Shown one piece after another: positions 3,356-45,936 of a DNA stretch of 64,000 nucleotides; within the stretch, counting starts at the first letter, position 1; each line of letters starts with the position of its first letter. Source of the DNA: Thermanaeromonas sp. C210 (GTDB lineage: Bacteria; Bacillota; DSM-521; Neomoorellales; Neomoorellaceae); contig NZ_BLWF01000004.1 of NCBI RefSeq assembly GCF_013167955.1, positions 62,001 through 126,000 on the forward strand. Direction: 5' to 3'. The position numbers and the translations under genes were made by a program. A model generated the notes under the pieces. The model saw nothing but the letters and a program-made list of their open reading frames with translations, was not told the DNA's origin and did no database searches.

Positions 3356-3922
3356 TTAGAAAAATTTTTGACCTGAAGTCAAGGTAAATGTTTCTAAAAC
3401 CTCGTAGCGGGGTCCCCGGGGGGTTAGATGACTCTGCATGAGCACTATCTCTTTTACCCTCTCTTCTCCCCAATTTTCTCCCTGACAGAGCCGTAGCCGT
3501 TGCTCAAGTTGAGTCCAATTGGCCCTGGACCGCAAACGCCCCAAGGTTAAATGGGGAGTAAAAGGCTCAGAGCCAAAGCCCAGGGGAAGAAGTGCGCCCT
3601 CTACGCGCCGGTGGAGATCCATTAAAGAAGGATTGGGATCAAGGCCCACCCAAATCACCCGGGGCCGGGACCAAGCAGGGAAGACGCCTATGCCCTTGAA
3701 GTGCAGCACCAGCTCTCCATATCCCTCCATATCCTGCCGTAGGCGGGGAACCATTTGTAGGGCCTGCGCCGGTTCGACTTCGCCCAGAAACTTCAGGGTT
3801 AGGTGAAGGTTTTCCCTTTCTACCCATTTAACGTCGGCCCCGCAGGTACGGAGTTCATCCTGCAGGGAAGCAAGGCGGCTATTCAATTCCCCAGACAGGG
3901 TTATGGCCACGAACAGGCGCAC
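3356..3922 (-). CDS. thpR: RNA 2',3'-cyclic phosphodiesterase
   Basis: This 2H-phosphoesterase family (formerly 2'-5' RNA ligase, LigT) opens 2',3'-cyclic phosphate ends. Both catalytic HxTx motifs are present: HLTLKFLG in the N-terminal half and HLTLGRLR in the C-terminal half. The likely start is GTG 3922-3920 ([11 protein letters not shown]), with GGAGG 8 nt upstream. A TTG five codons earlier would overlap that ribosome-binding site. The 188-aa length is typical. The gene lies between the FtsH-like gene (terminator between them) and recA, and recA starts 34 nt after it. Confidence 0.9.
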
Positions 3923-7438: not shown

Positions 7439-7494
7439 TACGTCTAAACTATCCGTTGGGCTCCTTTCCCTCGGCTAAGGCTTGCCCCTACCGT

Positions 7495-8253
7495 TCACTC
7501 TTCGCCGGCCTCCGGGGCCCTGAAGGTCCGGGTAACCACCTCGCCCACTTTGCCCAGGGGCGGCAACACCTCGCCGTTGACGGTGACTTCGGCCCTCCCG
7601 GCGCTCCCCAGGGTAAGGGTTATGGCTTCGTCCCCGCGAAAAGTTCGGGTGTCTCCGGCCCGAAGGGTGCCGGAGAAGGTGTCCTTCCCATCGACTCGAA
7701 CACCTATCCAGCATTCCTGCTCTCGGACGTACACCTTAACTTCCACTCCGCTGATTTCGGGAACCTGGGACGGAGGCGGCTCCGACGGGGAGGGAGCTGG
7801 CGGCGGAGCCGCAGGAGGTGTCACCCCGCCGTTCCTCGCGGGAGGGGGCAACTGCGGGCTTTCCTCGGGAACCGGCCGAGATTGATTATAAAGATAGTTC
7901 AACCCCCAGAGGAGGAACAACACCAGAACCACTGCCCACCAGCGGCTGATACCCCTTTTCTTGGTCTTTTCCCGGTGTCCTTCTCTGGGAGAGGCAACTC
8001 TGTATTCTTCCTCCTCTTCCGGAGGCAGCTCGGCCTTCAGCTCTTCCACCAGCTCCTGGGGATCTAACCCCAGATAGCGGGCATAACTGCGCAAGAAACC
8101 AATAGCATATACCCGCCCCGGGAACTGCTGGAAATCCTCCTTCTCCAGGGCATCCAGGTACTTCAGGCGTATTTTGGTGGCTTCCTCAGCCTCCCGTAAA
8201 GTGATACCTTTTTCTTCCCGCGCCCGGCGCAGCTCCTCACCTATTCTCCCCAT
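7495..8253 (-). CDS. rodZ: RodZ-like helix-turn-helix membrane protein
   Basis: This family links the MreB cytoskeleton to the wall-elongation machinery (B. subtilis YmfM). An N-terminal HTH_25 domain (IGEELRRAREEKGITLREAEE, about 3-70) is followed by a basic stretch, one membrane helix (WWAVVLVLFLLWGLNYLYN), a proline-rich linker and a C-terminal DUF4115 domain (about 165-245). I start it at ATG 8253-8251, which has AGGGGTGGGG upstream. An ORF extension to 8295 lacks a ribosome-binding site. The position directly after spoIIIE matches the conserved cluster. Confidence 0.88.
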   Translation of the reverse strand: MGRIGEELRRAREEKGITLREAEEATKIRLKYLDALEKEDFQQFPGRVYAIGFLRSYARYLGLDPQELVEELKAELPPEEEEEYRVASPREGHREKTKKRGISRWWAVVLVLFLLWGLNYLYNQSRPVPEESPQLPPPARNGGVTPPAAPPPAPSPSEPPPSQVPEISGVEVKVYVREQECWIGVRVDGKDTFSGTLRAGDTRTFRGDEAITLTLGSAGRAEVTVNGEVLPPLGKVGEVVTRTFRAPEAGEE

Positions 8254-8335
8254 AGCCCCACCCCTACAACCCTTTCTTCCGGGCATATCGCCCACTTTGG
8301 TTCTTCGACAAGGACCTATGAAATCCTTCTATAGA

Positions 8336-10648
8336 TCAAATATCGGCTGTTTCGCCAAAAATACGCCGGTACTCATCCCAATTAATAAGGATAGCGCGCG
8401 GTTTGGTGCCCTCAGGTCCCCCCACAAAGCCCCGGGCCTCCATCATATCCATCAGCCGTGCGGCCCGGGCGTATCCCACCCGCAGTCGCCTCTGGAGCAT
8501 GGAGATGGACGCCTGGCCCGTTTCCAGTACTACCCGCACTGCATCGGGCAGCAGTTCGTCACCACCGTTCTCCTCAGAAGAAAGCTGTTCTTCTTCCTTA
8601 AGGAAATTAGGATCGTAATCGGGGCGGGCTTGCTGCTTTATGTAAGTGACCAAATCCTCGACCTCCCGGTCGGAAACATAGACTCCCTGGACGCGAATGG
8701 GCTTAGTAGCCCCTGTGGGCAAAAAGAGCATGTCGCCCCGGCCGAGGAGCTTTTCAGCTCCCGCCATATCCAAGATGGTCCGGGAATCGATCTGGGAAGA
8801 GACGGCAAAGGCTATCCGGGCCGAGATATTGGCTTTGATCAAACCCGTGATAACATCCACCGACGGCCGCTGGGTGGCCACCACCAGGTGTATGCCCGCT
8901 GCCCTGGCCATCTGCGCCAGGCGGCATATGGCATCTTCCACATCGGCAGGGGCCACCATCATAAGATCGGCCAGCTCGTCGATGAGGACCACTATCAGGG
9001 GCAAGGCACCTTGTCCCTCGTTCTCCTTTTGCTGCAGGCGGTTATAACGGGTGAGATCTTTTACTCCTGCCGCAGCAAAAAGCTCATAGCGCTTCTCCAT
9101 CTCATTTACCACCCAGTGCAGGGCGGCAGCTGCCTTCTTGGGGTGGCTGACCACCGGCGCCAGGAGATGAGGTATGCCGTTGTACTGGGTAAGTTCTACC
9201 ATTTTGGGGTCGATCATCAGCAGCTTCAGCTCATGGGGCTTGGCCTTAAAAAGCATGCTGCAGATAAGGGAATTGAGGCAGACGCTCTTCCCCGAGCCGG
9301 TAGCCCCCGCGATAAGAAGATGGGGCATCTTCGCCAGATCCGCGATCACCGGATTGCCGGCAATGTCCTTGCCCAGAGCCAGAGTCAGTTTGCTGGGAGA
9401 CTCAGTAAAGGCGGGGGTTTCCAGCACTTCCCGCAGGTGAACCAGGGCTACTTCTTTATTGGGCACTTCAATACCCACGGCGGCTTTACCCGGGATCGGC
9501 GCTTCAATCCTCACCTGGGGTGCGGCCAGGCTGAGGGCAATATCGTCGGCCAGGCTTACTATGCGGCTCACTTTAATACCTGGCGCCGGCTGCACTTCGT
9601 AACGGGTAACAGCTGGGCCACAGCTCACCTGGGTCACCTTTACTTTGACGCCAAAACTGTCTAGAGTATCTTCTAAGATTTTGATGCGCTCGGCAATATC
9701 CTTTTCTAAGCGGGGATTTTTAACCCTTACGGGCTTGCTCAGTAAATTAAGAGGCGGCAAAACGTAATCCCCCGAGGAGCCCCCCCCCGCCGACAAAGGA
9801 AGTTCCTCATCCGTTTGTTCTGCGGAAGGCAGGGGGCTACGGGAACGCCGGCGCCGCTTTCCCTCCTCGTCTACCGCCGGGGGTGGAGGAGTATCGGGAT
9901 AAATCCTGGGCGATGGTTCCTCTTTAGCCTCAGCCGTTACCACCGGCGCGGCAGGACGGGTGTCCACAATTACCGGAACCACTTCCCGCTCGGTCTTGGC
10001 GTTTAATTTAGGCGCTTTTTCCTCCGCGCCATTATCCCCTGCTTCGTCAACCGTCACTTCGGTATAAAGGAAATTGACCAGCCACTCCTTAAGGCCGGAG
10101 CCCGCGGTCCTAAACCGGTGCCAGACCGACGCCAGCCCCTTGGACAGGGAAACCCCCGTAAAAAGAAGAAAAGCTATTAATACCAGGGATCCCAGAATAA
10201 TCCAGGTGCCTATCCGACCGAACACCGTCCCCAAAATTACAGAAAGCACGGCTCCGATGAGCCCGCCACCACCGCCGGCCATGCCTATGGCCAAAACTTC
10301 CCTGGCACCCCGCCCAGGCAAGTAAGGCTGGTGCAGTGCGCTCAGCAAGGTCAGGATGAAAATTAACACCCCGATCAGGCGGGCATTCAAATCGCGGGCC
10401 CGGCCGCCGATGATCAACCTCAGGCCCCACATTCCGAAAAAAATAGGAACCAAAAATTTGCCCTGGCCCGTCAAACCCTGAAGAACACGGACCATGAACT
10501 GGCCCAGGGCTCCGATGCTTGCGCCGGGGGACACCCACCCTACCGAGGTAGTATACAGGCCTGCTGCAAACAGGAGGGCCAAAGCCATCAGCAGGACGCC
10601 CATTATTTCATTCTTCAACCTGTTGGTAACCGTTTTGGTCTGCGGCAT
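8336..10648 (-). CDS. spoIIIE: DNA translocase FtsK/SpoIIIE
   Basis: A septal DNA pump that moves the chromosome during division and into the forespore. The 770-aa protein has an N-terminal block of about four membrane helices (15-170), a proline/charged linker (200-290), the alpha-beta motor with Walker A GATGSGKS (448-455) and the Walker B region [12 protein letters not shown]. The C-terminal gamma winged helix ([19 protein letters not shown]) reads orientation sequences. GGGGGG lies upstream of ATG 10648. It follows ylzJ, so normally it sits in the tepA-ylzJ-spoIIIE order. Here that neighbourhood is broken by the element in tepA. Confidence 0.95.
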
Positions 10649-15690: not shown

Positions 15691-17581
15691 ATCGAGTAGG
15701 AGGGGGCGGCTAGCCCCCGTCCTCTCACACCACCGGACATGCGGGTCCGCATCCGGCGGTTCATCAAGCTTGACGAAGACAAGAATAGCGGTCGGTTAAG
15801 CTCATGAGGCCCTGGGACTGCCAATAGGCATTGCCCAGGGCTCTATTCATTGGCCCATGGGCCATCCGCCATGGCCCTTTGCGAGCATTGGCAAATTGAT
15901 GTACTACCCACTCTGGTAGCCCCAGTGCACGCAGTTCGCGGTATCTTGTCCGTACTCGCTTCCACTGCTTCCAGAGACACATGCGTAGCCTCCTCCGCAT
16001 CCAGCCTTCTATCTCCTCAAAGACGCTGGGCGTTTCGGCCAGGGCAAAGTATCCTATCCACCCGCCCAAGTAGGCGTTGAGACGCTCTATACGCTCGGCC
16101 ATACTCACGGGTTTATTCCGGGCAGTTATCTCCCGAATTTTCCCTTTCACCCGCTCGATGGTCTGAGGCGCCAGGCGGATAAGAATTTCTCCTGTCTTGC
16201 GTTTGTGCATGCTGAACCCCAGGAATTTCAGTTTCCACGGTCGGTCTACCGCGCTCTTTTGCTCATTAATCTTGAGCTTCAACCGCTCCTGCAGGAAGTT
16301 GCGGATACTTGCCATGACCCTTTCTCCCGCTCGTTTGCTTTTGACGTAGATGTTGCAGTCGTCGGCGTAACGGACGAATTTGTGGCCCCTCTTTTCCAGT
16401 TCTTTGTCCAGGTCGTCCAGGAGGATGTTGGCCAGTAACGGGCTTAAAGGTCCACCCTGCGGCGTCCCTTCTGCCGTCTCTATGACTATTCCGTTTACCA
16501 TGACGCCTGCCTGGAGATAACGGCGGATAAGGATGAGTACCCTCTTATCCGTTACTTTTCGGGCCACTCGGGCCATGAGTATGTCGTGGTTTACCCGGTC
16601 GAAGTATTTCTCGATGTCCAGGTCCACAGCCCATTCGTATCCTTCTTCTACGTACTGCCGCGCCTTCTTTACCGCGTCGTGGGCTCTCCTTCCGGGTCGA
16701 AACCCGAAACTGCCTTCTGAAAACTGCGGTTCGAAGATGGGCGTCAATACCTGCAGGAGGGCCTGCTGGATCAGGCGGTCCATCACTGTGGGTATCCCCA
16801 GCTTCCGTTTGCCTCCCCCGGGTTTCGGGATTTCGACCCGGCGCACGGGCTTTGGTCTGTAGGTTCCCGCGAGCAGTTCTCCCCGGATGCGCGGCCTTGT
16901 CAAACGCGTATTTGGTCCCGCAACCCTTCGGCCGGGATGCCGTCCACGCCGGGCGCGCCTCCGTTCCGCTCTACCCGCTTTAACGCGGCCAGCATGTTGC
17001 TCCTTTCCACCACCTGCTCCATCAGGCCGCTACCTTGGCCTCCGCGAGGTGACGTTCCGCTTTGTGCCGGAGAAGAACTCGGCCCTCCCGCGGTCCCCCG
17101 TGGCTTCACCACTTCCTCCCGCGGACAGGCCCCTTGCGGGGTTTTCTGCTGTCTTCGTCCTTCTCGCGAACGCATCGGTTTCACCTCTGACTTGATGTTC
17201 GGGCCTTCCCCTGGTGTTCATGACCCCCTGGGTACTATGCCCTCTGCTGACTCCTGCCGGTTCAGCCGTGCCTTCCGACACGGGTTGCCAGCTTTCCCTG
17301 GCTTATCCGGCAGGCCTCCCCGGGTAAGAGCGTTAACCTTCGCCCCGCGCCCGCCCCATCTACTCTACCGCCCCTTGGCAGCCTGGGATTTCGCTGTGTG
17401 TTGCCAGCTCATCCGAACGGTCTAGCCTCCTATGGGGTTCTTGTTCATCGGGCCGTGGCTTTGCCTCCGGCTTCCTTCGAATCCTACCTCGCGGTAGGCA
17501 CCCTTGCCTTTGGCTAGCAGACTGTGCTGCCTCGCCTGCAGCGGACTTTCACCACCAAGTTAACGCCCATGCCGGGCGCAC
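15691..17581 (-). mobile_element. Group II intron (class C type)
   Basis: The minus strand carries the full intron. The 5' end at 17581 reads GTGCGCCCGGCATGGGCG followed by the domain I start GGTGGTGAAAGTCC. Domain V is the hairpin GAACCGCCGGATGCGG ... CCGCATGTCCGGTGGT at about 15725-15770. Domain VI is ACGGGGGCTAGCCGCCCCC with the 3' end CCTACTCGAT at 15691. The 5' exon is an intrinsic terminator stem, the favoured target of group IIC introns. The 1,891-bp intron encodes a maturase/reverse transcriptase that is frameshifted, so the intron RNA may be intact but immobile without help in trans. Confidence 0.9.
15764..17184 (-). pseudogene. ltrA: Group II intron reverse transcriptase/maturase, frameshifted
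   Basis: Two frames together make one class C intron-encoded protein. The first part (GTG 17184 to 16900) contains KTPQGACPREEVVKPRG and MEQVVERSNMLAALKRVERN, ending at DQIRV and a stop. The second part starts in another frame with RPRIRGELLAGTYRPKPVRR. It includes the reverse-transcriptase blocks GIPTVMDRLIQQALLQVL, GFRPGRRAHDA, TPQGGPLSPLL, the catalytic FVRYADDC and a C-terminal maturase region ending LTDRYSCLRQA. Adding one G near 16903 gives a continuous QIRVW-T-RPRIR, so a one-base loss explains the break. There is no HNH endonuclease domain, as is normal for class C. Confidence 0.85.
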
Positions 17582-19128: not shown

Positions 19129-20058
19129 CTAGCATAATCCCCGATAGCTGGGATGGCGGAGGCGGCCCTCCGGCGTCTCCTCCAGATACTCCACTTTGCA
19201 CACCAGACGGGGTTCCACCCACCGGACCCCCCTGATACCCGCCAGCCCTTCTACCTGATGGGGCAGAAGCGAGGGCAGTTTTTCCAGCTCCGCCAGGAGA
19301 TGCCTCTCTTCCTCCCGGTCGAAGCCGGTGCCCACCTTTCCCCGGTACACCAGCCGGCCATCCAGGTATTCACCCAGCAGAAGGGCACCCAACTCGCGGC
19401 GGCCGGTCCCCGGCTGGTACCCCAGAATGAGGAATTGCCCCTCCCGGGTACGCCTGAACTTTCGCCAGTAACTAGAGCGACGGCCCGGAAGGTAAGGGCT
19501 CCCCTTCTCCTTGGCCATAACCCCTTCCAAACCCTGCTCGAGGCAGGACTCGAAAAACCTGGTCCCATAGGTGCTGATAAAGCCGGATATTATGAGGTTA
19601 TCCGTAGGCCGCACCGCTTCCTGAAGCCAGCCTTTGCGCACCTCCAAGGGCCTGGCCATAACATCTTGACCGCGGTAATACAGAACATCGAAGACCACCA
19701 ACAGGGCGGGCGCCCGCGCGGCCGCCCTGCGCACCTTCCACTCGTCAATTAGATTTCCCCGAGCCTTAAGGAAATTAAAGGAAGGGCGACCCGTATCGTC
19801 CAAAACTATTATTTCTCCGTCCAGTACCAACGGCTGACCCTTAACTGAATGGTGAAAGTAGGACAGATCCGGGAAGGAACGGGTGAGATCCTGCAGGTTG
19901 CGTGATTGAAGGATGGTTTTCCCGTCAATATAAGCCAGACAGCGGTAGCCGTCCCACTTTATTTCATATATAAAGTCGGGCGAGTCAAAGGGTTCGCTGG
20001 ATACGGCCAGCATGGGCCGGAGCCTGTAAAGCGGCAGCCCTGTATGGCCCGGTGTCAT
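19129..20058 (-). CDS. ATP-dependent DNA ligase (LigD ligase domain)
   Basis: A stand-alone version of the ligase module of bacterial LigD, sealing DNA ends in non-homologous end joining. The 309-aa protein has the adenylation motif EIKWDGYR with the nucleophilic Lys (residue 30), VLDGEIIVLD, the LVVFDVLY segment and EGVMAKEKGSPYLPGRRS. An OB-fold C-terminal domain (about 205-309) includes the nucleotidyl-transfer motif region WRKFRRTR. Its ATG overlaps the ku stop codon by 4 bp, so ku and ligase are co-translated. In most bacteria the ligase is fused to the polymerase, but here that is a separate gene at 21331-22227. Confidence 0.92.
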   Translation of the reverse strand: MTPGHTGLPLYRLRPMLAVSSEPFDSPDFIYEIKWDGYRCLAYIDGKTILQSRNLQDLTRSFPDLSYFHHSVKGQPLVLDGEIIVLDDTGRPSFNFLKARGNLIDEWKVRRAAARAPALLVVFDVLYYRGQDVMARPLEVRKGWLQEAVRPTDNLIISGFISTYGTRFFESCLEQGLEGVMAKEKGSPYLPGRRSSYWRKFRRTREGQFLILGYQPGTGRRELGALLLGEYLDGRLVYRGKVGTGFDREEERHLLAELEKLPSLLPHQVEGLAGIRGVRWVEPRLVCKVEYLEETPEGRLRHPSYRGLC

Positions 20059-20873
20059 GAGGTCTTTCGCCGGCGCCGGGCACCGGCCTTTTCCTCTTTT
20101 TGCACCATCTCAATACTGGCTTTAAGGGCCTCCATAAGGTCCACCACTTTGTGGGCCTCGGGCCGGGCCGGGACCTCCACCTCTTGCCCTGCTATCTTAG
20201 CCTCTACCAACTTTCTCAGAGCCTGGCGGTACTCGTCGGTGTACTTTTCCGGCCGGAATTCCGCCGTCAGGGTGTTAATCAGGGTAACCGCCATTTCGAC
20301 CTCTTTGGTCTCCAGGCGCACCTCATATTTAAGCTCCGCGAGTTCCCCTACCGAACGCAGTTCTTCGGGGTAGATCATGGTATTCAGCATAAGGCTCTTA
20401 TCATACACCCTTACGGCGGCCAGGGAGGTTTTATTTCTTAAGGCGACCTTGGCAATGCCTATTTTCCCCGTCGCCTTTAGAGCCTCCCACAGTAAGGCAT
20501 AGGCCTTTTGCCCCCCGTCGGCGGGTGTCAGGTAATAAGAGCGGTCAAAGTAGACAGGGTCTATCTCCCGGAGGTCCACGAAGTCGAGGAGGTTAATAGT
20601 TCTGGTAGCTTCCCGGGGCAGATCTTCCAGGTCTTCTTCCCGCAAAACAACGTACTTCCCCTTTTCGTACTCATATCCCCGCACAATCTCCTCCAGGGGC
20701 ACCTCTACCTGGCAGTAAGGGCAGTACCTCCGGTATCTGATAGGGGTTTTGCACTTGGCGTGCAGGTAGTTAAACTTTACACCGTTGCTTTCGGTAGCCC
20801 TGTACAGCTTTACCGGTATGTAAACCAGGCCGAAGCTTATAGCTCCCTTCCAGAGCGGACGCACACCCTTCAC
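20055..20873 (-). CDS. ku: Ku DNA end-binding protein
   Basis: Bacterial Ku forms a homodimeric ring on DNA ends and recruits LigD for end joining. The protein opens VKGVRPLWKGAISFGLVYIP, the standard Ku N-terminus, has CPYCQ in the strand-gripping region, and ends in a basic tail (ARRRRKTS). I start it at GTG 20873. A sigma-G-like promoter at 20913-20942 would start RNA near 20905, so the upstream TTG at 20909 would not be transcribed. The length is about 272 aa. It overlaps the ligase gene by 4 bp. B. subtilis ku (ykoV) is a forespore sigma-G gene, which fits the promoter here. Confidence 0.93.
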   Translation of the reverse strand: MKGVRPLWKGAISFGLVYIPVKLYRATESNGVKFNYLHAKCKTPIRYRRYCPYCQVEVPLEEIVRGYEYEKGKYVVLREEDLEDLPREATRTINLLDFVDLREIDPVYFDRSYYLTPADGGQKAYALLWEALKATGKIGIAKVALRNKTSLAAVRVYDKSLMLNTMIYPEELRSVGELAELKYEVRLETKEVEMAVTLINTLTAEFRPEKYTDEYRQALRKLVEAKIAGQEVEVPARPEAHKVVDLMEALKASIEMVQKEEKAGARRRRKTS

Positions 20874-20912
20874 TCCAACCCTTATTCCCGGACACCCCGG
20901 TTTTTTCAAATG

Positions 20913-20942
20913 TAGTATGTCTCCCCATACCCCCTGTAATAC
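20913..20942 (-). promoter_or_regulatory. Sigma-G/F-like forespore promoter of ku
   Basis: Minus strand GTATT (20942-20938), 18-bp gap, CATACTA (20919-20913). CATACTA is the sigma-G -10 consensus, and the -35 matches G-N-A-T at 4 of 5 positions. Exactly the same layout (GTATT-18-CATACTA) precedes the 5' part of tepA. Confidence 0.6.
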
Positions 20943-21330
20943 CTGCCGCCGGCTCCGGGGACCTCGGGCGGAAACCGCCCTGCCGCTCCGTTAACCGCTG
21001 CTCAAAGTTTCCACCCGCACCTAGGTAAACACCTGGCGCATCCCTACTTTTTAGCGGGGCGTGATTTAACTCCCGCTCGCCCCGTGAGCCTCGCGGACTA
21101 ATACTTGTGCTCAATTTTCAGCCTCCGGCGGGGTCCCCGACTCATTTGGCTTCCGTACCTCAGGAGCTGGCCTCGCCGTCCATAGCCTCGGCCCCGCCTC
21201 CGTCCTCAATTTCGCAAAAGACTGCCTTCCGCTCAGGTCAAGTCGCTCGCTTACCTAAATCACCCTTATCAAAATAGTGGATACATCGAGGGTAAACACT
21301 TCATCCTTGCCAACGTGGAAAAGCCGCTCT
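20943..21330. other. Intergenic region between ku and the LigD polymerase gene
   Basis: About 390 bp with no supported gene. The ku promoter lies at its left end. No clear terminator for the upstream polymerase gene was found. Confidence 0.4.
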
Positions 21331-22227
21331 TCAAGGGGACACTAAAACCCGGGCCGCCTCCAGAAGGGAGGTAAGGTCGTTGCGGCCCTCGAGTAAACCC
21401 CGGTAAAGATCCCCCCGCTCCTGGAGGCGGCTGCAGATGGTGTGGATGTTAAAATCCTGGGGGACTATTCTCCCCTCTTCTACCTCCTCCCAGGTCAGTG
21501 GTGCGGACACCGGAGCCCCGGGCAGAGGCCGCAGGCTGTACGGAAAGGCCATGGAGCGGCCCCGGGCATTCTGTCTGTAGTCGAAATATACTTTACCCCT
21601 GCGCCTGGCTATTTCATGGGCAATGGTTACCTTGGCCGGATATATCTCGGCCATCATGCCGGCCAAAGCGCCCACGGCCGCCGTCACCTCGGAAAAAGTC
21701 CACCTGGGTGCCAGGGGAATAAAAACGTGAAGTCCCCTGGCTCCTGAAGTCTTGGGATAACCGGTAAGCCCCAATTCTTTCAGAACCCCGCGCAAAAGAA
21801 CGGCCACTTCCAGGACATCCCGGAAAGTGGCTCCTTCTGCCGGGTCCAGGTCAATCACAGCTATATCGGGATACTCCAGGTGCTCCGCCCGGGAAAGCCA
21901 GGCATGGAGCTCGATGCACCCCAGGTTGGCCAGCCAGGCCAGGGTCTCCGGATTATTGCACAAAACATAGTTAACGCGCTTGCCGCTCTCGCGGTGGTGC
22001 ACGGTTACGGTCTCCACCCAGGGCGGGGCACCGGCGGGGCATTCCCTCTGGTAAAAGGCCTGCCCCTTTATTCCGTCCGGGTATCGCTTCATTATCACCG
22101 GCCGACCCTTGAGGTAGGGAAGGACCACCGGAGCCAAATCGATATAGTGCTTTATAAGGTCAAATTTGGTCAACCCTTCTTCCGGCCAGAAAACCTTATC
22201 CAAATTGGTTAATTCTATTTCGTTCAT
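21331..22227 (-). CDS. LigD-type primase-polymerase
   Basis: The polymerase module of NHEJ (archaeo-eukaryotic primase superfamily), which fills gaps at joined ends and favours ribonucleotides. The 298-aa protein opens MNEIELTNLDKVFWPEEG, a signature of LigD polymerases. It has the catalytic pair in VIDLDPAEG, TSGARGLHVFIPL, and FDYRQNARGRSMAFPYSLR near the C-terminus. The start is ATG 22227 with GGGGCAAGG upstream. An extension to 22338 has no ribosome-binding site. It is separated from ku-ligase by a 460-bp gap but lies on the same strand. No phosphoesterase module was seen. Confidence 0.92.
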   Translation of the reverse strand: MNEIELTNLDKVFWPEEGLTKFDLIKHYIDLAPVVLPYLKGRPVIMKRYPDGIKGQAFYQRECPAGAPPWVETVTVHHRESGKRVNYVLCNNPETLAWLANLGCIELHAWLSRAEHLEYPDIAVIDLDPAEGATFRDVLEVAVLLRGVLKELGLTGYPKTSGARGLHVFIPLAPRWTFSEVTAAVGALAGMMAEIYPAKVTIAHEIARRRGKVYFDYRQNARGRSMAFPYSLRPLPGAPVSAPLTWEEVEEGRIVPQDFNIHTICSRLQERGDLYRGLLEGRNDLTSLLEAARVLVSP

Positions 22228-22450
22228 AGCCTTGCCCCATCGACTTTTCTCTAGGGCGAATCTCCTCCAAGGTCCGCAGGCCTTTCTTCTGGCCGGTTGG
22301 CAACCCCAACCTAACCGGCTAAGCTTACATCCTTCCATTCAAGGTTAAGTATTTCCGCGCTACTACTTGGGATATTCGGCCGAACCTGGCGAAAGTAAAT
22401 TAACCCTCTTATTCGGCGCCTAGAAAAACCGGCTGCCCCTCGGTAGCTTT

Positions 22451-24534: not shown

Positions 24535-24572
24535 TCCCTGCCCGGCACCCAAGTACCGGGCAGGGATTTTCT
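24535..24572 (+). terminator. Intrinsic terminator
   Basis: TCCCTGCCCGG and CCGGGCAGGGA form an 11-bp stem with a 10-nt loop, followed by TTTTCTT. It is read from the plus-strand gene. The minus-strand side also has an A/T-rich tail and could serve the dmsA-like gene, which ends at 24692. Confidence 0.8.
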
Positions 24573-24691: not shown

Positions 24692-27067
24692 CTAAGCTTT
24701 GACAACCTCTACCAGGTTGGTGTGCTGGGGATTGCCGAAGGCTAGGGGACTGGGATGGTACTTGGTAATGACATTGGCACAGCCCCGTTGATCGATGCCG
24801 TCGGCATCAGGCGTCCACCAGGCGCCCTGGGGTACGGAAACCACCCCCGGCATAATCCGCGGGGTAACCTTGGCGCAGATGATCATAGCTCCCCGGTCAT
24901 TGAACACCTTTACTTTGTCCCCATCTTTTATACCCCGGACCTCAGCATCTATCGGGTTAATCCATACCACCTGGGGAGCCGCTTCCTCCAGCCACGGCAC
25001 GTTGTCAAAAGTTGAATGAGAGCGGCGGCGATAATGGGGAGTGATACACTGCAGGGGATATTTCTCCCGCAGGGGATCCTGGGGTCCCTCCCAGGAAGGA
25101 ATATATTTCGGTACAGCCGGTATCTCCTCGGGATTGTTCATTTTCCATAGACGTTCGGAGAAAATCTCAATCTTGCCCGACGGTGTGGGGAAGGGATTGT
25201 TGTCGGGATCTTCTATCTGCTCTTTGAAGGCAATGGCCGGTTCCGGATATTGCCACCGATAATAACCCTTTTGTTTGAACTCTTCGTAGGTGGGAAACTC
25301 CGGATGGTTTTTCCGGGTTGCGTCCACGATATAGCGCAACCAGTCTTCCAGTGTCTTCCCTTCGGTGAACTGCTCCCTAATGCCCAGCTTCTCGGCCAGA
25401 TCGCTAATCCAGTCATAACCGTTGCGGCACTCGAAAACCGTATCCACTGCTTTGTTTATAAAAAGGACATAGTCTCCGAACCCCCATGGGGTTACTATGT
25501 CATCCCTTTCCATGGGATTATCTGCCGGTAGGAGGACATCGGCAAACTTGGCGCTGGGGGTCATGAAATGTTCGCTAACCACAATCAACTCCACGAGGCT
25601 TTCATCCTGGAGCAGTTTGGCAGTACCGTTGCAGTCAGAATGCTGGTTGATTAACGTATTGCCGGCCAGATTAAAGATTATCTTAATGTTCGCCGATAAT
25701 TGCTCTACCCCTTGGACCCCGTCCTTGGCCCCCATACCCTTGCCCCGCTTAATGGCGTCCGGCCAGATAAAGCAGGAAATGCTGGCCTTGCACGGATTGT
25801 TTACTGGAATGCTGCCGACCTTCTGCCCCCGCGCCTGGTAGCCGGCGCCCGAGGCCCAGCCGCCGCTAATACCGACGTTGCCCGTCATGGCCGCCAGGAC
25901 GGTACCTCCGCGGACGAACTGTTCTCCATAGGCCTGCCGCTGGGGGCCCCAACCCTGAATGAGAGCAGCCGGTTTCATGGTGGCGTACTCCCGCGCCAGC
26001 TGGATAATCTTCTCTTTGGGCACCCCAGTGATGGCCTCAGCCCATTCCGGTGTCTTGGGCGTTTTATCTTCGCCCAGCCCTAAGACATAGCTCTTATAGG
26101 AGTTGCCCGGAGGTATTCCCGGCGGCATGTGCTCCTCGTCGAAACCGAGGCAGTATTTGTCCAGGAAAGCCTGATCGTGCAGGTTTTCCGTTATCATTAC
26201 GTAGGCCATGGCATCCATAAGGGCGTTATCCGTAGTGGGCCGGATAGGGATCCACTCGTCGGCCAGGTTAATGGCCGTGTCGGTATAGCGCGGGTCGATA
26301 ACAATTATCTTGGCACCGGCATCCTTGGCCCGCCGTAGGTAATAGATGGTGTTGGTGCCGTGAATAGTTTCAGCGGGATTCCAGCCCCAAAGGATAATCA
26401 ACTTGGAATTGACCCAGTCTTCCCGGCTGTTGCCTGTACTGATGGTGCCGTAGGTGTAAGGTGTCGCCATCTGCGTCTGGGCGGTACTATAGGTACCGTA
26501 GTAATTTAGATAACCACCGTACAGGCCCAGGAGGCGCTGCATCCACACCCTTTCTGCCGTTTTCCCGGCGTTACCAGAAGCATAGTGTATATATATGGCT
26601 TCCGGTCCATACTCCTGCATGACACGTTTGATATGTTCAGCAATGATAGTGAGGGCCTCATCCCAGCTAATGCGCTCAAATTTTCCCTCCCCCCGTTTGC
26701 CGACCCGCTTCATGGGATATTTCAGGCGATCGGGATGGTACAAACGGTTGCGGTAGGACCGACACCGGAGGCAGGCGCGCAGCTGCGGCAGGTCTTCGGT
26801 GTCTGGAGCATCGTCGGTGGTAATTCGTACGATCACGCCGTCTTTGACATGGGCTTTGACGATGCAACGGCCGCCGCAGTTATGGGCGCCGGAAGTTGGA
26901 ACAATTTTTACGCCGTCATCCCCGGTTGCCGCATTAGCATTTGCACCCGCCCTTTTCCCCAGGGGCATGGTCAGCAGGGCAGCCGCTCCACCGGCGGCAG
27001 CGGCGCTCAAGGCTAAGAATTTACGCCTGGAAATAGTTTTGGGCCAGAATTTGGTTTCCTCCGCCAT
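24692..27067 (-). CDS. DmsA-like molybdopterin oxidoreductase (DMSO reductase family)
   Basis: A 791-aa molybdenum enzyme most like the catalytic subunit of anaerobic DMSO reductase. A Tat signal (SRRKFLALSAAAAGG, about 13-27) sends it across the membrane. An iron-sulfur region follows (NCGGRC ... RACLRCRS), then YPMKRVGKRGEGKFERISWD, the Mo-ligand region YGTYSTAQ with a Ser, IIDPRYTDTA and QGWGPQR. Relative to E. coli DmsA the first cluster cysteine is replaced, and an extra Cys lies in CLRC. No DmsB or DmsC gene is adjacent. The only partner is a radical SAM gene just upstream. GGAGG is 8 nt before ATG. The true substrate is unknown. Confidence 0.88.
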   Translation of the reverse strand: MAEETKFWPKTISRRKFLALSAAAAGGAAALLTMPLGKRAGANANAATGDDGVKIVPTSGAHNCGGRCIVKAHVKDGVIVRITTDDAPDTEDLPQLRACLRCRSYRNRLYHPDRLKYPMKRVGKRGEGKFERISWDEALTIIAEHIKRVMQEYGPEAIYIHYASGNAGKTAERVWMQRLLGLYGGYLNYYGTYSTAQTQMATPYTYGTISTGNSREDWVNSKLIILWGWNPAETIHGTNTIYYLRRAKDAGAKIIVIDPRYTDTAINLADEWIPIRPTTDNALMDAMAYVMITENLHDQAFLDKYCLGFDEEHMPPGIPPGNSYKSYVLGLGEDKTPKTPEWAEAITGVPKEKIIQLAREYATMKPAALIQGWGPQRQAYGEQFVRGGTVLAAMTGNVGISGGWASGAGYQARGQKVGSIPVNNPCKASISCFIWPDAIKRGKGMGAKDGVQGVEQLSANIKIIFNLAGNTLINQHSDCNGTAKLLQDESLVELIVVSEHFMTPSAKFADVLLPADNPMERDDIVTPWGFGDYVLFINKAVDTVFECRNGYDWISDLAEKLGIREQFTEGKTLEDWLRYIVDATRKNHPEFPTYEEFKQKGYYRWQYPEPAIAFKEQIEDPDNNPFPTPSGKIEIFSERLWKMNNPEEIPAVPKYIPSWEGPQDPLREKYPLQCITPHYRRRSHSTFDNVPWLEEAAPQVVWINPIDAEVRGIKDGDKVKVFNDRGAMIICAKVTPRIMPGVVSVPQGAWWTPDADGIDQRGCANVITKYHPSPLAFGNPQHTNLVEVVKA

Positions 27068-27170
27068 GACGTGCGCCTCCTTATTGTAAGATTCTTAACA
27101 ACCGAGGGCAATCACCCAGACCTCTTGCCCTCCCAACGGTTTCCTGACTACCCCCTTCCCCGAAACCGGG

Positions 27171-28496
27171 CTAAACATCGGCTGCCGGATCAAATATCTC
27201 CGGCCAGGTCAACTGGATCTTTAATTCGCGTAAGTAGCTGCCATCCTCGCGCTCCTCCATGACGCTAGTGGATATGCCTACTTCCACTTCCAGGCCTTTT
27301 AGCTCTTTAACCTGGTTTACATGAAACTCCAGAAATTGGAATGTCTTGTTGAGGTTATACCAGCGATAGTTCCTCTTCTTGAATACCCTCAGGACCCGCG
27401 GGATGTCGCCGCCGAACACTTTGGCCGACTTAATAAAGTAATCACGGGGAGAAAAATGGAGAAAGGGCGCTGCCCCGTGGCCGTAGTTTTGCCGGTAGAT
27501 CTGGCTGGTATTTTTATTTTCTAAAGAGCAATAGTGGATACCGATTTTTAGCCCCTGTTCGAGGGCAAAATCCATCAGTTCCAAACAGTCCAGCTCGCTC
27601 CCGGCCACCGGGAGTCCTCCGCCGTACCAGTAGTTGTAAAGCACCCGGTAAGGAGGATTCTTAATCTTGTACCCCTTTTCCCTGTAAACGTCGGCATTGT
27701 TAAATGGGTAGCAGAATTCCAGAAGGTTAATCCCAAAAATGTTTAGTCGTTCCAGCTCCAATAATATCCCTTGCATCTCGGGTACGGTTCCGGGCAGAAC
27801 CGGCATTTCCACCATTACCCGAGGGATATAATCCCGCGCCAGGGCTATATGCTTGAAGGTGCGCTGCCGCACCCCCTCTGGGTCGTGGAGCCTTATGCTA
27901 AAACGAATTTCATCCAGGCCGGCCCCTTGCAGGGCTGCCAGCATGTGGCGGTCGGCCAGGTCTCCAGCCGTATATAGGCGGGTATAAACACCGGGAAATT
28001 TTTCTTTGGCAGCGCGGAAAAAGGCCAGCATTTCTGCCGGGTGGAGAAGGGGCTCTCCTCCCGTTAACGCCAGGTGGGTTATTTCCTGCCCGGCCCTTTG
28101 TAAGTAATCTAGTTCCCGGAGACAGTCCCTTTTATTTTGGCTGTAATAGTCGTAGTTCTCCTGGTTGGGATTAAAGCAGAAGAAACAGCGGCGGTGACAC
28201 TGCAGGGAAAGGAATAAGGTGAGGCTTCCCACACCCTTCCGGCAGGCCAGGCAAGCAGGTGAGATGCGGTTTATATACAGGCTCTTAGCATCGTTCCGAA
28301 CTACTACACCCTTACGGCGCAGGTTCTCTATCCGATTCTTGGTTTCTTCTTGCCAGTTGTCCTCGGCTATTTCTATACCGGTCCGTCGGACTTGGTGCAA
28401 AAAATCTTCATATATCTGAAGGTATGTTCCGGCATACTTGGCTAGGACCGGATTTCTAATCCGGGGGAGAGTTTCCGGGCAGATATCAATGATCAC
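27171..28496 (-). CDS. Radical SAM protein upstream of the DmsA-like gene
   Basis: The radical SAM motif CHRRCFFC (about residue 105) and the glycine-rich LALTGGEPLLHP place this about 441-aa protein in the radical SAM superfamily. An earlier CLACRKG, with cysteines around 82-85, may pair with others for zinc or a second cluster. SRLHDPEGVRQ-type sequence and a C-terminal beta region follow. The start is chosen at GTG 28496 with GGGGTG about 7 nt upstream. GTG 28505 is possible but overlaps that site. It precedes the DmsA-like gene by about 100 bp on the same strand, so a role in maturing or modifying that enzyme is possible, but this is inference. Confidence 0.75.
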   Translation of the reverse strand: MIIDICPETLPRIRNPVLAKYAGTYLQIYEDFLHQVRRTGIEIAEDNWQEETKNRIENLRRKGVVVRNDAKSLYINRISPACLACRKGVGSLTLFLSLQCHRRCFFCFNPNQENYDYYSQNKRDCLRELDYLQRAGQEITHLALTGGEPLLHPAEMLAFFRAAKEKFPGVYTRLYTAGDLADRHMLAALQGAGLDEIRFSIRLHDPEGVRQRTFKHIALARDYIPRVMVEMPVLPGTVPEMQGILLELERLNIFGINLLEFCYPFNNADVYREKGYKIKNPPYRVLYNYWYGGGLPVAGSELDCLELMDFALEQGLKIGIHYCSLENKNTSQIYRQNYGHGAAPFLHFSPRDYFIKSAKVFGGDIPRVLRVFKKRNYRWYNLNKTFQFLEFHVNQVKELKGLEVEVGISTSVMEEREDGSYLRELKIQLTWPEIFDPAADV

Positions 28497-28983
28497 TCTC
28501 GCCACCCCTGCTACCGGCTGCGGTCAAGGCCGTCCGCCCCCAGGCGGATTGGCCGGTTAAATGGAGAGCGGAAGGTGGGAAAACCGTAGATAAGATAGGC
28601 CCATCCACACCAGAGCGCTGGTTTGGCCGGCCTCTGTTTTAGGAATATCCTAGCATTCACATTTTTGTAGATTCCACGTTGGCGCTTCCCTTCCCTTTAT
28701 CTAACGCAACAAACCTAACCCCTGGCTTTTTATATTAGCGTACAAAAATACCGTTACTAACCAGCCGCCATAACTGGCCGTATCAGGGGTTAGGAAGAAC
28801 AGGCTTTCTCGCAACCGTGGCCGGTCACATATGTTGCTACCTGCTGCAAATGAGATGAAAGAGATCATAATGTTAGTGGGTATTCATTTAAGGAAAGGAG
28901 GGTACGCCTCCCCCCATGTCGCAAGTTTAAAGGGGGGAGGCGTTAGGACGCAAAGTAGAGATTGACTTCTTAAAGGCGGGTCA
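28497..28983. other. Intergenic region with a long GC-rich hairpin
   Basis: About 490 bp without a supported gene. It contains a perfect 12-bp inverted repeat, ACGCCTCCCCCC (28904-28915) and GGGGGGAGGCGT (28932-28943). No U-run follows on either strand, so it is not a standard terminator. Confidence 0.5.
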
Positions 28984-29366
<383 letters not shown>

Positions 29367-29405
29367 AAACTCTCCTTTTCTTTTTTAAAGTTTTAAGATA
29401 TGCCC

Positions 29406-30527
29406 TTACCTACCCCCTGCTGCCACGCGGCCTTCGTTTCCGTTGACAAACCGCAACGCTGCTGTGGACATATCTGGATAGGCGTCCTCTCCGTGCTGTG
29501 AGAGATCCAAACCTACTTCTTCCTCTTCAGTGCTGGCCCTTAAAGGCGTAAGCAACCCCACTACTTTAAGGATTACAAAAGTAGCTGCAGCGACAAAGAC
29601 CCAAGCCGCAAGAACCGCTATTAACTGCGTTAATAATAGGGGGAGGGATTACCATAAAACAGCCCGTTGTTACCTGCCGGATTTACAGCTTGCGAGGCAA
29701 ACAGACCGGTGGCCAGGGACCCCCACGTACCTCCTATACCATGACAACCAAAGACGTCGAGGGCATCATCATAACCGATTCTTCTCTTTAGAATGCTCAC
29801 GGCAAGGCAACACAGTATTCCGGCTATTAGGCCGATAATTATAGAGGCCAAGGGTGTTACGTAACCCGCGGCAGGGGTAATGGCTACCAACCCTCCAACA
29901 GCACCACTTGCTGCTCCCAATACGGTCGGTTTTCCATGAAGCATCCACTCGGTAAATATTCAACCCAGGACAGCCGCTCCTGCTGCCGTATTGGTAGTAA
30001 TGAAGGCACTGACCGCTAGTTCAGACGCTCCCAAAGCACTACCGGCATTGAAGCCAAACCACCCAAACCATAAAAGGGCCGTTCCCATAACTGTCATAGG
30101 TAAATTATGGGGAGGCATGGGAAGCTTGCCATAGTCCATTCTGGGACCTAAAACCAGAGCGCCCACTAGACCGGCCACACCAGCGCTGATATGCACCACC
30201 GTGCCTCCTGCAAAGTCCAGAGCCCCCTAGATTGCGCAACCACCCATTTACGGCCCATACCCAATGGGCTAAAGGATCATAAACAAAAGTTGCCCAAAGC
30301 AGAACGAACAAGAGATAAGCGGGAAAGCGCATTCTTTCAACAATAGCTCTAGATATTAAAGCTGGTGTAATTATGGCAAACATTAACTGAAAGGCAGCAA
30401 ATACTTGATGGGGAATGCCAGACGCGTAGTCGGGATTAGGAGTTAGTCCTACCTGGCGAAACCATATCCAACTAAGATTTCCTATAATGTTACCTACGTC
30501 TGGGCCAAAGGCCAAGGAATAACCCAT
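29406..30527 (-). pseudogene. amt: Ammonium transporter, decayed
   Basis: Ammonium-transporter membrane segments are spread over several frames: NLSWIWFRQVGLTPNPDYA and IPHQVFAAFQLMFAIITPAL (from 30527), [19 protein letters not shown] (30199), [20 protein letters not shown] (29944) and a C-terminal cytoplasmic tail ending about 29406. A one-base insertion near 30225, a TGG-to-TGA stop near 29957 and a frameshift near 29640 separate them. The first roughly 100 residues are absent, because similarity stops at the edge of an unrelated pyrophosphatase remnant at 30535. Confidence 0.88.
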
Positions 30528-30534
30528 AAGTATC

Positions 30535-30908
30535 CTGGTCTTATGGAAGGCAAAGCCAGGCCCAGTATGGGAACTGCGCAGACATAGTGACCCGTGGGGC
30601 CTTAAAGGAAATGGTATTGTCAGGTATGGTAGTAGTGGTAACTCCCATGCTTGTAGGCTTGATTCTGAAGGCGGAAGCCGCGGCGGCCTTCCTTATGATA
30701 CTTCCTTAACAACGGGGGCGGTGCGTGGGATAACGCCAAGAAATTCATTGAATTAGGCAATTATGGAGGTAAAGGTTCCGAGGCCCATAAGGCCGGGGTG
30801 GTAGATGATACAGGGGGAGACCCGTAAGGATCGGCAGGGCCTTCCTTACAGGTTCTTGTTAAGCTCATCAGTCCTATAACCTTAGTGTTAGCTAGGCTTT
30901 TCGTGTAA
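30535..30908 (+). pseudogene. hppA: Membrane-bound pyrophosphatase, C-terminal remnant
   Basis: On the plus strand the peptides PGLMEGKARP, then CADIVTRGALKEMVLSGM and [20 protein letters not shown], then [15 protein letters not shown] and GPSLQVLVKLI match in order the last quarter of proton/sodium-pumping pyrophosphatases. They are split by at least two frameshifts, a TAA in place of the DPFKD lysine region, and a deletion before the GGAWDN helix. The front three quarters are missing. It abuts the truncated amt remnant head-to-head. Confidence 0.85.
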
Positions 30909-33847: not shown

Positions 33848-35787
33848 ACCCGAGTTCGACAGTTGCTAGGCAAAAATGGGTGCTTTTTAGGTGAAGAAGC
33901 CTTATAAATCAAGGGTTTTCGGTTTCGGGGAAGTCCAAAAATGAAAAACTGTATAGGCACACGATTGAGAGTTTATCCCTTGATGATAAGGTAGTACATG
34001 GGCTATAATATAGACATGTACATACGAACTGTTTCCCGCAAGAACAAGGACGGCTCTGTTGTCCGTTATATTCAGCTGGCCCACAACGTCTGGGACCCTA
34101 AAGCCGGCTACCCGAAAGCTAAAGTACTCTACAACTTCGGCCGTGAAGAGGAGGTAGACCGGGAAGCCCTGGTCCGCCTGGTAAAGAGTATTACGCGTTT
34201 TTTGGGACCGGAAGAGGCTTTATGCACCCAGGCAGAGTTAAATGGCGGCACTCCCCTGAAATTCATCTCCAGCCGGCCTATGGGTGGCGTCTGGGTGTTA
34301 AACGAGCTCTGGAACCGGCTGGGTATCAACCGGGTTTTGGCCGGATTGCTGGCCAAACGTAAGTTCCAGGCGCCGGTCGAACGGGCCATTTTCGCTATGG
34401 TAGCCAACCGGGCTTTGAACCCAGCCAGTAAACTTAAGACCGAGGATTGGGTCAGCCACGATGTTTTCATTCCCGGCCTTGCGGAGGTGCCGGTGCAAAA
34501 CCTTTACCGGGCCATGGACTTCTTACTGGAAGCTGCTGAAGAACTGCAAAAGGATATCTTCTTCTCCGTGGCCCACCTCTTTAACCTGGAAGTCGATCTC
34601 TTATACTTCGATACCACCTCAACCTACTTTGAAGTAGAGGAAGAGGATAATCCTGAAGATAACAAGCAGCACTTACGCCGTAAAGGCAACTTTAAGGACC
34701 ACCGGCCGGATTTACCGCAAGCTGTAATAGGTCTGGCTGTCACGAGGGGAGGCCTACCGGTACGCTGCTGGGTCTGGCCGGGCAATACCGCCGACATGGC
34801 GGTAATCGAGCAAGTCAAAAAGGACCTGGTGGGCTGGCAACTGGGCCGGGTCATCACCGTTGTTGACCGCGGTTTTGCTTCGGAAGATAATCTCCGTTAC
34901 CTCCAGCGCGCCGGCGGCCATTATATTGCCGGTGAAAAGATGCGCGGCGGCAAAGATACAGTGGCAGAGGCCCTGGCCCGGCCGGGCCGTTACAAAACCG
35001 TCAGAGATAACCTTGAAGTTAAAGAAGTTATTGTCGGCGACGGTGAAAAAAGGGTACGGTATATCCTGGTACGCAACCCTAAAGAAGCAGAAAAAGACAG
35101 ACTGGAGCGTGAGGAAATCCTGGCCCGCCTCAAAGAAGAACTAAGGGCTATCGGGGACCTTAAAGGCGAACCCCATACCAAAGCCTGTTGTCAACTCATC
35201 GCCCACCCCACCTATGGCCGCTATCTCAAGACCGACAAGAAGGGTCAACCGTATGTCGATATGGCCAAGGTAAAAGCCGAAGAAAAGCTGGACGGCAAAT
35301 ACCTGTTAAGAACCTCTGACGATACCTTAAGTGCTGAAGACGTAGCCCTGGGATATAAGCAGCTTCTCGAAGTAGAAGACGCCTTCCGCACCATGAAGCA
35401 GTCGCTAGAGCTGCGGCCTATTTATCATCGTCTGAGCGACCGCATCCATGCCCACGTCCTCCTGTGCTGGCTAGGGCTGCTCCTAATCCGGGTAGCTGAA
35501 ACGAAAGTGCAGGATAGCTGGCGGAACATCCGCCAGACCCTAGAACGCATGCACCTGGGCGAATTTGTTGGTCCTGAGGGCAGGGTCCTTCAAAGGACGG
35601 AAACAACCCCACCACAGCAGCATATCTTTAAGGCCCTCGGGATAAAGGAGCCGCCGCAAATAATCGCGGTTGAAATAAAAGGCCAAAAGCAGTCCCTAGT
35701 AACACGAGCTCAAAAAGCCGATCCCTGAAACCCTTGCGCAACAAGCTGTTGCGCTTATTATTCACCTAGTAACTGTCGAACTCGGGT
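33848..35787 (+). mobile_element. IS1634-like insertion sequence
   Basis: A complete element about 1.94 kb long with terminal inverted repeats ACCCGAGTTCGACAGTT(G/A)CTAGG (33848-33870; complementary copy 35765-35787). The two copies differ at one base. It carries one transposase gene. No clear target duplication was seen (flanks ATCGTCTT and TTACCTGG), so the original target is uncertain. It sits between motA and the HEPN-MNT pair. Confidence 0.88.
33998..35728 (+). CDS. IS1634-family transposase
   Basis: A 576-aa DDE transposase. After an N-terminal beta region (YIRTVSRKNKDGSVVRYIQL), the catalytic core has LLYFDTTSTYFE (first Asp), AVIGLAVTRGGLPVRCWV and VITVVDRGFASEDNLRYL (second Asp). 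The YKQLLEVEDAFRTMKQSLEL block carries the final Glu. The ATG at 33998 has AAGG about 7 nt upstream. An in-frame ATG 34016 is an alternative. The gene is intact and the terminal repeats are nearly identical, so the element could still be active. Confidence 0.93.
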   Translation: MGYNIDMYIRTVSRKNKDGSVVRYIQLAHNVWDPKAGYPKAKVLYNFGREEEVDREALVRLVKSITRFLGPEEALCTQAELNGGTPLKFISSRPMGGVWVLNELWNRLGINRVLAGLLAKRKFQAPVERAIFAMVANRALNPASKLKTEDWVSHDVFIPGLAEVPVQNLYRAMDFLLEAAEELQKDIFFSVAHLFNLEVDLLYFDTTSTYFEVEEEDNPEDNKQHLRRKGNFKDHRPDLPQAVIGLAVTRGGLPVRCWVWPGNTADMAVIEQVKKDLVGWQLGRVITVVDRGFASEDNLRYLQRAGGHYIAGEKMRGGKDTVAEALARPGRYKTVRDNLEVKEVIVGDGEKRVRYILVRNPKEAEKDRLEREEILARLKEELRAIGDLKGEPHTKACCQLIAHPTYGRYLKTDKKGQPYVDMAKVKAEEKLDGKYLLRTSDDTLSAEDVALGYKQLLEVEDAFRTMKQSLELRPIYHRLSDRIHAHVLLCWLGLLLIRVAETKVQDSWRNIRQTLERMHLGEFVGPEGRVLQRTETTPPQQHIFKALGIKEPPQIIAVEIKGQKQSLVTRAQKADP

Positions 35788-45748: not shown

Positions 45749-45936
45749 CCGTGCGAGGAGCGCTCCACTACCCCGTCTAGGTAGTGACAGTCTGGTACTT
45801 GTTCAGCACCAGCCCAGCAGCAGGGCCCGGGAAACCCGGCTGCTTCGGCGGCCAGCCCTTTCCCGTCCCTTCCTCGCTTCCCAGGCTCCAGGGCGGTACT
45901 CATGCTATGCCGCGCCTCTACCCCGCTCCGCACGAG
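45749..45936 (-). ncRNA. Lysine riboswitch (L box)
   Basis: The minus-strand RNA closes with a P1 stem (CTCGTGCGGAGCG with CGCTCCTCGCACG). It carries the L-box landmarks in order: TAGAGGCGCGGC, AGTA, AAAGGGCTGG, CGCCGAAGC, GCTGGGCTGGT, ACTGTCAC and GGTAGTGGAG. These match the conserved aptamer core by eye. A terminator follows and dapB lies downstream. Confidence 0.88.

Follow-up and report, generated by a model that had tools for sequence, protein, structure and literature searches.

The window analysed here is a stretch of 64,000 nucleotides from Thermanaeromonas sp. C210 (positions 62001-126000 of contig C4 in the source genome, G000, which comprises 2.68 Mb in 19 contigs). It carries a gene for a radical S-adenosylmethionine (SAM) protein and, downstream of it, a gene for a DmsA-like catalytic subunit of the dimethyl sulfoxide (DMSO) reductase type, which has an altered cysteine motif for the iron-sulfur cluster FS0 and, in its N-terminal part, a twin-arginine translocation (Tat) signal. 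Both open reading frames (ORFs) are intact and lie on the same strand with 103 bp between them. The features of this pair are the following.

27171-28505, minus strand: radical SAM gene (444 aa), recognised by its PF04055 match, with its start at GTG 28505 or GTG 28496
24692-27067, minus strand: DmsA/YnfE-like catalytic subunit gene (791 aa, Tat signal), recognised by TIGR02166
27014-27031, minus strand: Tat motif S-R-R-K-F-L, residues 13-18, read from the translation
26762-26890, minus strand: FS0 cluster region with Gly60, Cys64, Cys68, Cys99 (CysIV) and Cys102 (CysIV+3), placed by alignments
26486-26488, minus strand: Ser194, at the position of the YST serine in DMSO reductase by alignment
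24535-24566, minus strand: terminator-like hairpin after dmsA with a 14-bp stem and a T run, from a consensus scan only

The true start of the radical SAM gene may be the GTG at 28496, which is in frame and three codons downstream of the one at 28505, since the start of one relative aligns there. At the other end, the 14-bp stem of the terminator-like site after dmsA suggests that the transcription unit probably ends at the hairpin at 24566-24535; the consensus scan found 15 such sites in the region, compared with 6.9 expected from shuffled sequences. Folding of the 103-base intergenic gap was no better than that of shuffles (z -0.51), and nothing suggested a riboswitch next to the unit, where Rfam gave no match at gathering scores. 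Just upstream of the radical SAM gene lies an amt-glnB pseudogene region (28980-30600, minus strand), in which an ammonium transporter (PF00909) is broken into at least two frames (30105-30527 and 29630-29944) and is followed by a remnant recognised by eye as PII-like.

The DmsA-like protein matched TIGR02166 (dmsA_ynfE) with 1067.4 bits over residues 12-791, above the cut-off of 777.7. An initial annotation of this DNA had described a Tat-exported subunit of the DMSO reductase type paired with a radical SAM gene, and both parts of that description hold: the profile match is accompanied by the Tat motif, and the partner exceeds the cut-off of PF04055. Ser194 was invariant in 38 rows and, in alignment, matched the YST serine of 1eu1 (DMSO reductase), which we take to be the Mo ligand. 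The best match among solved folds was TorA (9h4t; Z 44.4, root mean square deviation [rmsd] 2.6, 701 residues aligned). By analogy with its family, the protein is predicted to hold a Mo-bis(pyranopterin guanine dinucleotide) (bisPGD) centre ligated by Ser194 and to reduce an S- or N-oxide or a similar acceptor.

The radical SAM protein scored 65.9 bits with PF04055 (cut-off 29.5) and carries the SAM-cluster motif C103-x3-C107-x2-C110. Further cysteines are found upstream (C85-x2-C88) and at C326 (HYCS). All six were invariant in 46/46 rows and throughout an alignment of 53 rows, one of which repeats the window sequence and from which 25 short or low-scoring rows were omitted. A natural reading of this conservation is that C85, C88 and C326 would hold a second, three-Cys cluster. 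The AlphaFold2 model was confident (mean predicted local distance difference test [pLDDT] score 94.6). Its nearest solved folds were viperin, NifB, pyruvate formate-lyase (PFL) activase and MoaA (Z ~14.6-17.0, rmsd 2.5-3.7), with 187-220 residues aligned within 80-343 at ~14-19% identity and the N- and C-terminal parts barely covered. These several near-tied families pointed to no single function or reaction. Among the named NCBIfam radical SAM families compared (HxsC, MoaA, PqqE, TIGR04311 and others), the protein stayed below every cut-off; the best scores were 45 bits for HxsC (cut-off 267.9), 29.5 for MoaA (284.05) and 19.1 for TIGR04311 (400). The protein thus appears to belong to an uncharacterised family, with families outside those compared remaining candidates.

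We then located the genes that usually accompany a DmsA subunit. The genome gave 35 DmsB-type matches (E≤0.001), with none in the window, and the single one above the TIGR02951 cut-off lies at C2:458295-458777. Two DmsC matches were found, both outside the window (C2:457392-458177 and C1:470854-471636), and contig C3 carries the sole TorD-type match (PF02613). Beside the dmsB and one dmsC gene on C2 are tandem dmsA paralogues, two TIGR02166 genes at C2:458810-463661 (locus L034) that precede the dmsB and dmsC genes; the set is followed by another molybdoenzyme and a ferredoxin-like gene. The orphan status claimed for the window dmsA therefore stands locally, there being no DmsB, DmsC or TorD match in the window, but not genome-wide, with dmsB and dmsC on C2 and torD on C3. 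This arrangement on C2 resembles the E. coli ynf operon, in which two A-subunit genes precede one B and one C gene. Since that layout suggests sharing of one BC set by YnfE and YnfF, the window DmsA could by analogy share one with its C2 paralogues. The proposal of a different electron donor fared poorly, given the presence of dmsB and dmsC in the genome and, as described below, of a DmsA with the same cysteine change in an apparent torD-dmsA-dmsB-dmsC operon.

In a further step, the distribution of the radical SAM gene was investigated. A search of 61 genomes (the source genome and 60 relatives; E≤1e-10) gave matches in five: the window, three family relatives (67-77% identity) and one distant genome (28%). 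In the three family relatives (G006, G014 and G011) the gene lies within a cluster of dmsA-type, dmsB and dmsC genes, and the stretches from G006 and G014 also contain torD. The adjacency is thus not unique to this strain; uniqueness is what the initial annotation had named as counting against its reading. That the relatives carry the very same pair was considered and rejected, as the adjacent DmsA is a different paralogue there: in trees, the one beside the radical SAM gene in G006 and G014 groups with the source genome's own L034:11805, and the one downstream of it in G011 falls in another group.

These neighbourhoods bring up the notion that the window pair is a relic, in which the radical SAM gene was left over from a dismantled larger dms cluster and its closeness to this dmsA is accidental. 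Consistent with this, the three family relatives have the gene embedded in a larger dms cluster, the source genome keeps dmsABC elsewhere, the DmsA beside it in the window is not orthologous to its DmsA neighbour in the relatives, and broken amt fragments lie just upstream. However, both frames are intact, the radical SAM protein retains every invariant Cys, and the two genes share a strand at a distance of 103 bp, with a terminator-like site after dmsA. We consider a relic rather unlikely, at perhaps one chance in four.

A scan of genome contigs yielded 66 radical SAM loci, of which 48 at ≥37% identity (L050-L097) were taken as the core and 18 at ≤33% (L098-L115) as distant homologues. Neighbours were counted on the full ORF set of each locus with profiles for DMSO-reductase-family (MOCO), TorD, DmsB, DmsC and ferredoxin-like proteins that had been built from matches in partly the same loci; the counts refer to the available flanking sequence. 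In this gene-neighbourhood survey, which had been proposed for the pair, a DMSO-reductase-family gene flanked 39/48 core loci, compared with 0/18 distant ones. The core flanks also contained DmsB (37), TorD (28), ferredoxin-like (16) and DmsC (11) genes. When only the 34 core loci with 5 kb or more on both sides were considered, the counts were 31 for the DMSO reductase family, 31 for DmsB, 24 for TorD, 15 for ferredoxin-like and 10 for DmsC genes, whereas the distant loci had one DmsB, three ferredoxin-like and no TorD or DmsC genes. The distant relatives (25-33% identity), which are mostly labelled Elusimicrobia and have no molybdoenzyme or TorD neighbours, probably represent a sister family with a different function.

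The link to the chaperone was closer than expected by chance. Among the 39 loci with known genome counts, TorD lay within 300 bp of the radical SAM gene at 12, compared with ~0.13 expected, and at 26 the distance was no more than 5 kb (~0.94 expected). A ferredoxin-like gene was found within 300 bp at 12/48 core loci, with a 4-base overlap at four (L050, L051, L069 and L070). PF02613 was present in all 39 genomes tested behind core loci; the same genomes had TIGR02166 at E≤1e-100 in 29 cases and above its cut-off in 21. In a phylum sample of 398 genomes (thresholds E≤1e-60 for the radical SAM protein and E≤1e-180 for TIGR02166), the radical SAM protein occurred in 10. Every one of these also carried PF02613, which is present in 78 genomes of the sample (hypergeometric p 5e-8), and 8 of them belonged to the 17 with TIGR02166 (p 7e-11). 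The core and phylum sets overlap, as the genome of L054 seems, from its identical coordinates, to be G315 in the phylum sample.

Several observations weigh against a dedicated role of the radical SAM protein in building these enzymes. No molybdoenzyme was found in the flank at nine core loci (L054, L058, L059, L065, L068, L075, L082, L085 and L091), several of them short or at contig ends, nor at any of four further loci of the phylum sample (L132-L135), two of which have a TorD gene; L134 lies close to the end of a contig and seemingly coincides with L054, and the radical SAM loci of G142 and G320 were outside the examined set. Where the gene is solitary at L058, L059, L065 and L068, the genome still carries a TorD-type chaperone gene. 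The radical SAM protein was missing from 9/17 TIGR02166 genomes of the phylum sample, so it is an addition and not a general need of DmsA-type enzymes. Moreover, loci, like the protein rows examined below, share kinship, by which the p-values are overstated and serve as guides only, and the neighbouring molybdoenzymes belong to several subfamilies, so that no single client is indicated.

This last observation fits equally well with a protein that makes or degrades a small molecule of the same respiratory pathway, such as a reductase substrate, a quinone or a signalling compound, in which case no enzyme would be modified and the clustering would reflect the shared pathway. Viperin and MoaA act on nucleotides, and both are among the nearest folds of the radical SAM protein, beside NifB and PFL-activase. 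Against a small-molecule role, the steadiest companion is an assembly factor, the TorD-type chaperone (39/39 and 10/10 genomes; ≤300 bp away at 13/48 loci). We judge such a role to be improbable, at about one chance in five. The tie of the family to DMSO-reductase-family operons and TorD chaperones agrees with the unusual maturation step that had been suspected from the pair.

We next examined the FS0 motif, CX3CX3CXnC. In the window DmsA, Gly60 stands at CysI (TSGAHN-CGGRC; Gly at -4 and Ser at -5 relative to CysII), and an additional cysteine, Cys102, is found at CysIV+3 (CLRCRS). In the three E. coli proteins DmsA, YnfE and YnfF, CysI stands at -4 and the residue at CysIV+3 is a Gly. The four-Cys motif with CysI at -4 or -5, which marks canonical DmsABC enzymes, is thus absent from the window protein. 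The displaced first ligand and the extra Cys in CLRC had both been pointed out in the initial annotation, and the combination recurs in three other rows of a survey of 113 rows (the window protein and relatives at ≥250 bits, including the three E. coli proteins). Removal of L138, L213 and L056, in which the motif was truncated or misaligned, left 110 readable rows; the survey is uneven, as many rows were drawn from radical SAM-bearing genomes that had been searched deliberately. CysI was present at -4 or -5 in 99/110 rows, none of which had a Cys at CysIV+3, compared with 4 of the 11 CysI-less rows (Fisher 5.7e-5). The four swapped rows are the window protein, L182 (G485), L038 (G053) and L055 (Anaerolineales). 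All four retain CysII, CysIII and CysIV as well as the Asn that precedes CysII and an Arg at CysIV+2.

On a quick tree of 76 rows (motif columns removed; rows below 480 bits and L138 left out), parsimony gave at least three changes for the CysIV+3 Cys, always in CysI-less rows, and at least five for the CysI state. Five independent pairs differing in CysI gave the CysIV+3 Cys three times in the same direction, never in the opposite one and twice without a difference. Because the CysIV+3 Cys occurs only in CysI-less DmsA rows and was gained at least three times, the loss of CysI together with this gain suggests a relocated FS0 ligand, and Cys102 most likely supplies the fourth one. In the quick tree the window DmsA groups (Shimodaira-Hasegawa-like approximate likelihood ratio test [SH-aLRT] 97) with L034:14317, a C2 paralogue from the same genome whose motif is the ordinary one, whereas an earlier careful tree had left this fork open.

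Other points speak against relocation. The sign test on the independent pairs, which are too few, gave p 0.25. The AlphaFold2 model was only moderately confident over residues 61-70 (pLDDT 68). Two formate-dehydrogenase-like proteins at L079 have CysI and the CysIV+3 Cys together, with the CysIII position unaligned; they fall below the score limit of the survey and outside the DmsA rows. Finally, 7/11 CysI-less rows are without a CysIV+3 Cys, which indicates that the family tolerates the loss.

DorA/TorA-type enzymes are not known to have an FS0. The function of such enzymes is called FS0-independent in a preprint (PMC12636705). The CysI-less DmsA may likewise have lost FS0 or hold a three-ligand cluster, with Cys102 a chance or neutral substitution, and both the tolerated loss and the moderate confidence in the FS0 loop of the model are compatible with this. 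What argues otherwise is the distribution of the CysIV+3 Cys (0/99 versus 4/11, with its repeated changes on the tree) and the fact that each of the four swapped rows retains the other three Cys together with the Asn and the Arg. We put this alternative at roughly one in four, and the relocation of the ligand remains the reading that we follow.

In a smaller comparison of 9 CysI-less and 14 other rows, we looked for another new Cys that could replace CysI in rows without a CysIV+3 Cys. No alignment column had a Cys in all nine and in none of the 14. Position 471 had one in 4/9 and position 683 in 3/9 CysI-less rows, with 0/14 others in each case, and both are far from the motif in sequence; among the nine, the sequence of L122 is truncated where the motif lies, and L062, with a Cys at -5, counted as CysI-bearing in the larger survey. 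Separately, the two L079 proteins (1192-3522 and 6833-9130) show CysI, CysII, CysIV and the CysIV+3 Cys with nothing aligned at CysIII, and possibly represent another relocated FS0 ligand; the first matches TIGR01591 (Fdh-alpha) below the cut-off.

The two peculiarities of the locus had been tied together in the initial annotation. In a stronger version of that idea, they would form a single system in which the radical SAM protein specifically assembles or services the unusual FS0 site. They do occur together in the window and at L055, where the radical SAM gene and the swapped DmsA are 1.5 kb apart. However, the swapped genome G053 had no radical SAM match at E≤1e-20, and the swapped DmsA of L182/L216 lies in an apparent torD-dmsA-dmsB-dmsC operon of ordinary look (by translation; L182 matches TIGR02166 with 1072.8 bits). 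Most radical SAM-linked enzymes keep an ordinary CysI. In addition, TIGR02166 was above cut-off in 15 genomes of the phylum sample, and the clade with the CysI-less rows was present in 4/8 of these with the radical SAM protein and in 4/7 without it. On the strength of G053 and L182, the radical SAM gene and the FS0 swap are probably independent of each other, and a single system appears very improbable.

Taken together, we give about even odds to the locus being a short unit that combines a radical SAM protein of an uncharacterised family, aiding the building of TorD-dependent molybdoenzymes, with a client-type, Tat-exported DmsA in which FS0 is remodelled. As inferred from the genomic association, the cytoplasmic radical SAM protein would work with TorD/NarJ-type chaperones that build DMSO-reductase-family molybdoenzymes. 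Its SAM cluster (C103/C107/C110) would generate the radical, the putative second cluster (C85, C88, C326) would assist or bind the substrate, and electrons might be supplied by a ferredoxin-like partner such as the one encoded beside it at a quarter of the relatives' loci. The radical SAM protein would act before export by the Tat system, either on the catalytic subunit bound to the chaperone or on the pterin cofactor of that subunit. In the window DmsA, which has lost CysI, Cys102 would become the fourth ligand from its place three residues past CysIV in a predicted helix, and an FS0-like relay would be retained toward DmsB/DmsC encoded elsewhere in the genome. More specifically, and with tentative confidence of about one in three, we propose a radical SAM maturase, dedicated to TorD-dependent Mo/W-bisPGD enzymes of Bacillota, Chloroflexota and gut Actinomycetota, that adds a hitherto unseen covalent modification to the chaperone-held subunit (or the pterin), alongside a client-type enzyme in the window whose Fe-S ligand has moved across the FS0 motif.

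If the radical SAM protein acts in maturation, there would be an unsuspected modification in a class of molybdoenzymes from respiratory metabolism and gut bacteria (including those of Eggerthellaceae), or these would depend on an additional factor, with possible consequences for their production in other hosts. If Cys102 does serve as an FS0 ligand, the swap would amount to a recurrent natural experiment in metal-ligand relocation, with the ordinary paralogue L034:14317-16668 as a control from the same genome.

Elsewhere in the window we observed a group II intron (15691-17498, minus strand; three Rfam matches) with a 379-aa ORF inside (15764-16903), presumed to be its reverse transcriptase, and a lysine riboswitch (45750-45928, minus strand; Rfam 105.9 bits). 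At 19129-22338 (minus strand), three ORFs, named Ku-like, ligase-like and polymerase-like by reading translations alone, resemble a bacterial end-joining system divided among separate genes. A transposase with a DDE_Tnp_1 domain is encoded at 33998-35728 (plus strand).

In the passages returned by a search of the open-licence literature, we recognised no description of a radical SAM protein tied to DMSO-reductase or TorD operons and none of a CysIV+3 Cys in FS0. Compared with E. coli DmsABC and YnfEFGH, the window DmsA is alike in its full-length TIGR02166 match, its Tat signal, the Ser at the Mo position and the TorA/DMSO reductase fold. It is unlike them in lacking CysI, in having the CysIV+3 Cys, in the absence of adjacent dmsB, dmsC and dmsD genes and in the radical SAM gene upstream. 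In FS0 of subfamily II (the NarG/ethylbenzene dehydrogenase type), a His occupies the CysI position. Three Cys and a His are given as the ligands of that cluster in one study (PMC8840923), whereas in the window DmsA the ligand has seemingly moved to the opposite end of the motif. The preprint mentioned above (PMC12636705) describes spacing variants of the DmsA-type FS0, C3X and C4X, in which the first Cys shifts. Both spacings, -4 and -5, occur in our survey; such variants keep a CysI, but the window DmsA has none and carries the CysIV+3 Cys instead. With NifB, PFL-activase, MoaA and viperin, the window radical SAM protein has the radical SAM core in common at low identity. A parallel in gene context is the quinohemoprotein amine dehydrogenase locus, where a radical SAM protein encoded with a redox enzyme is proposed to help form its cofactor, according to PMC2147049; the client there is a different one. 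Thus, an FS0 with an unusual ligand and two spacings of the first Cys are known already, and the most interesting part of the present locus is the uncharacterised radical SAM family.

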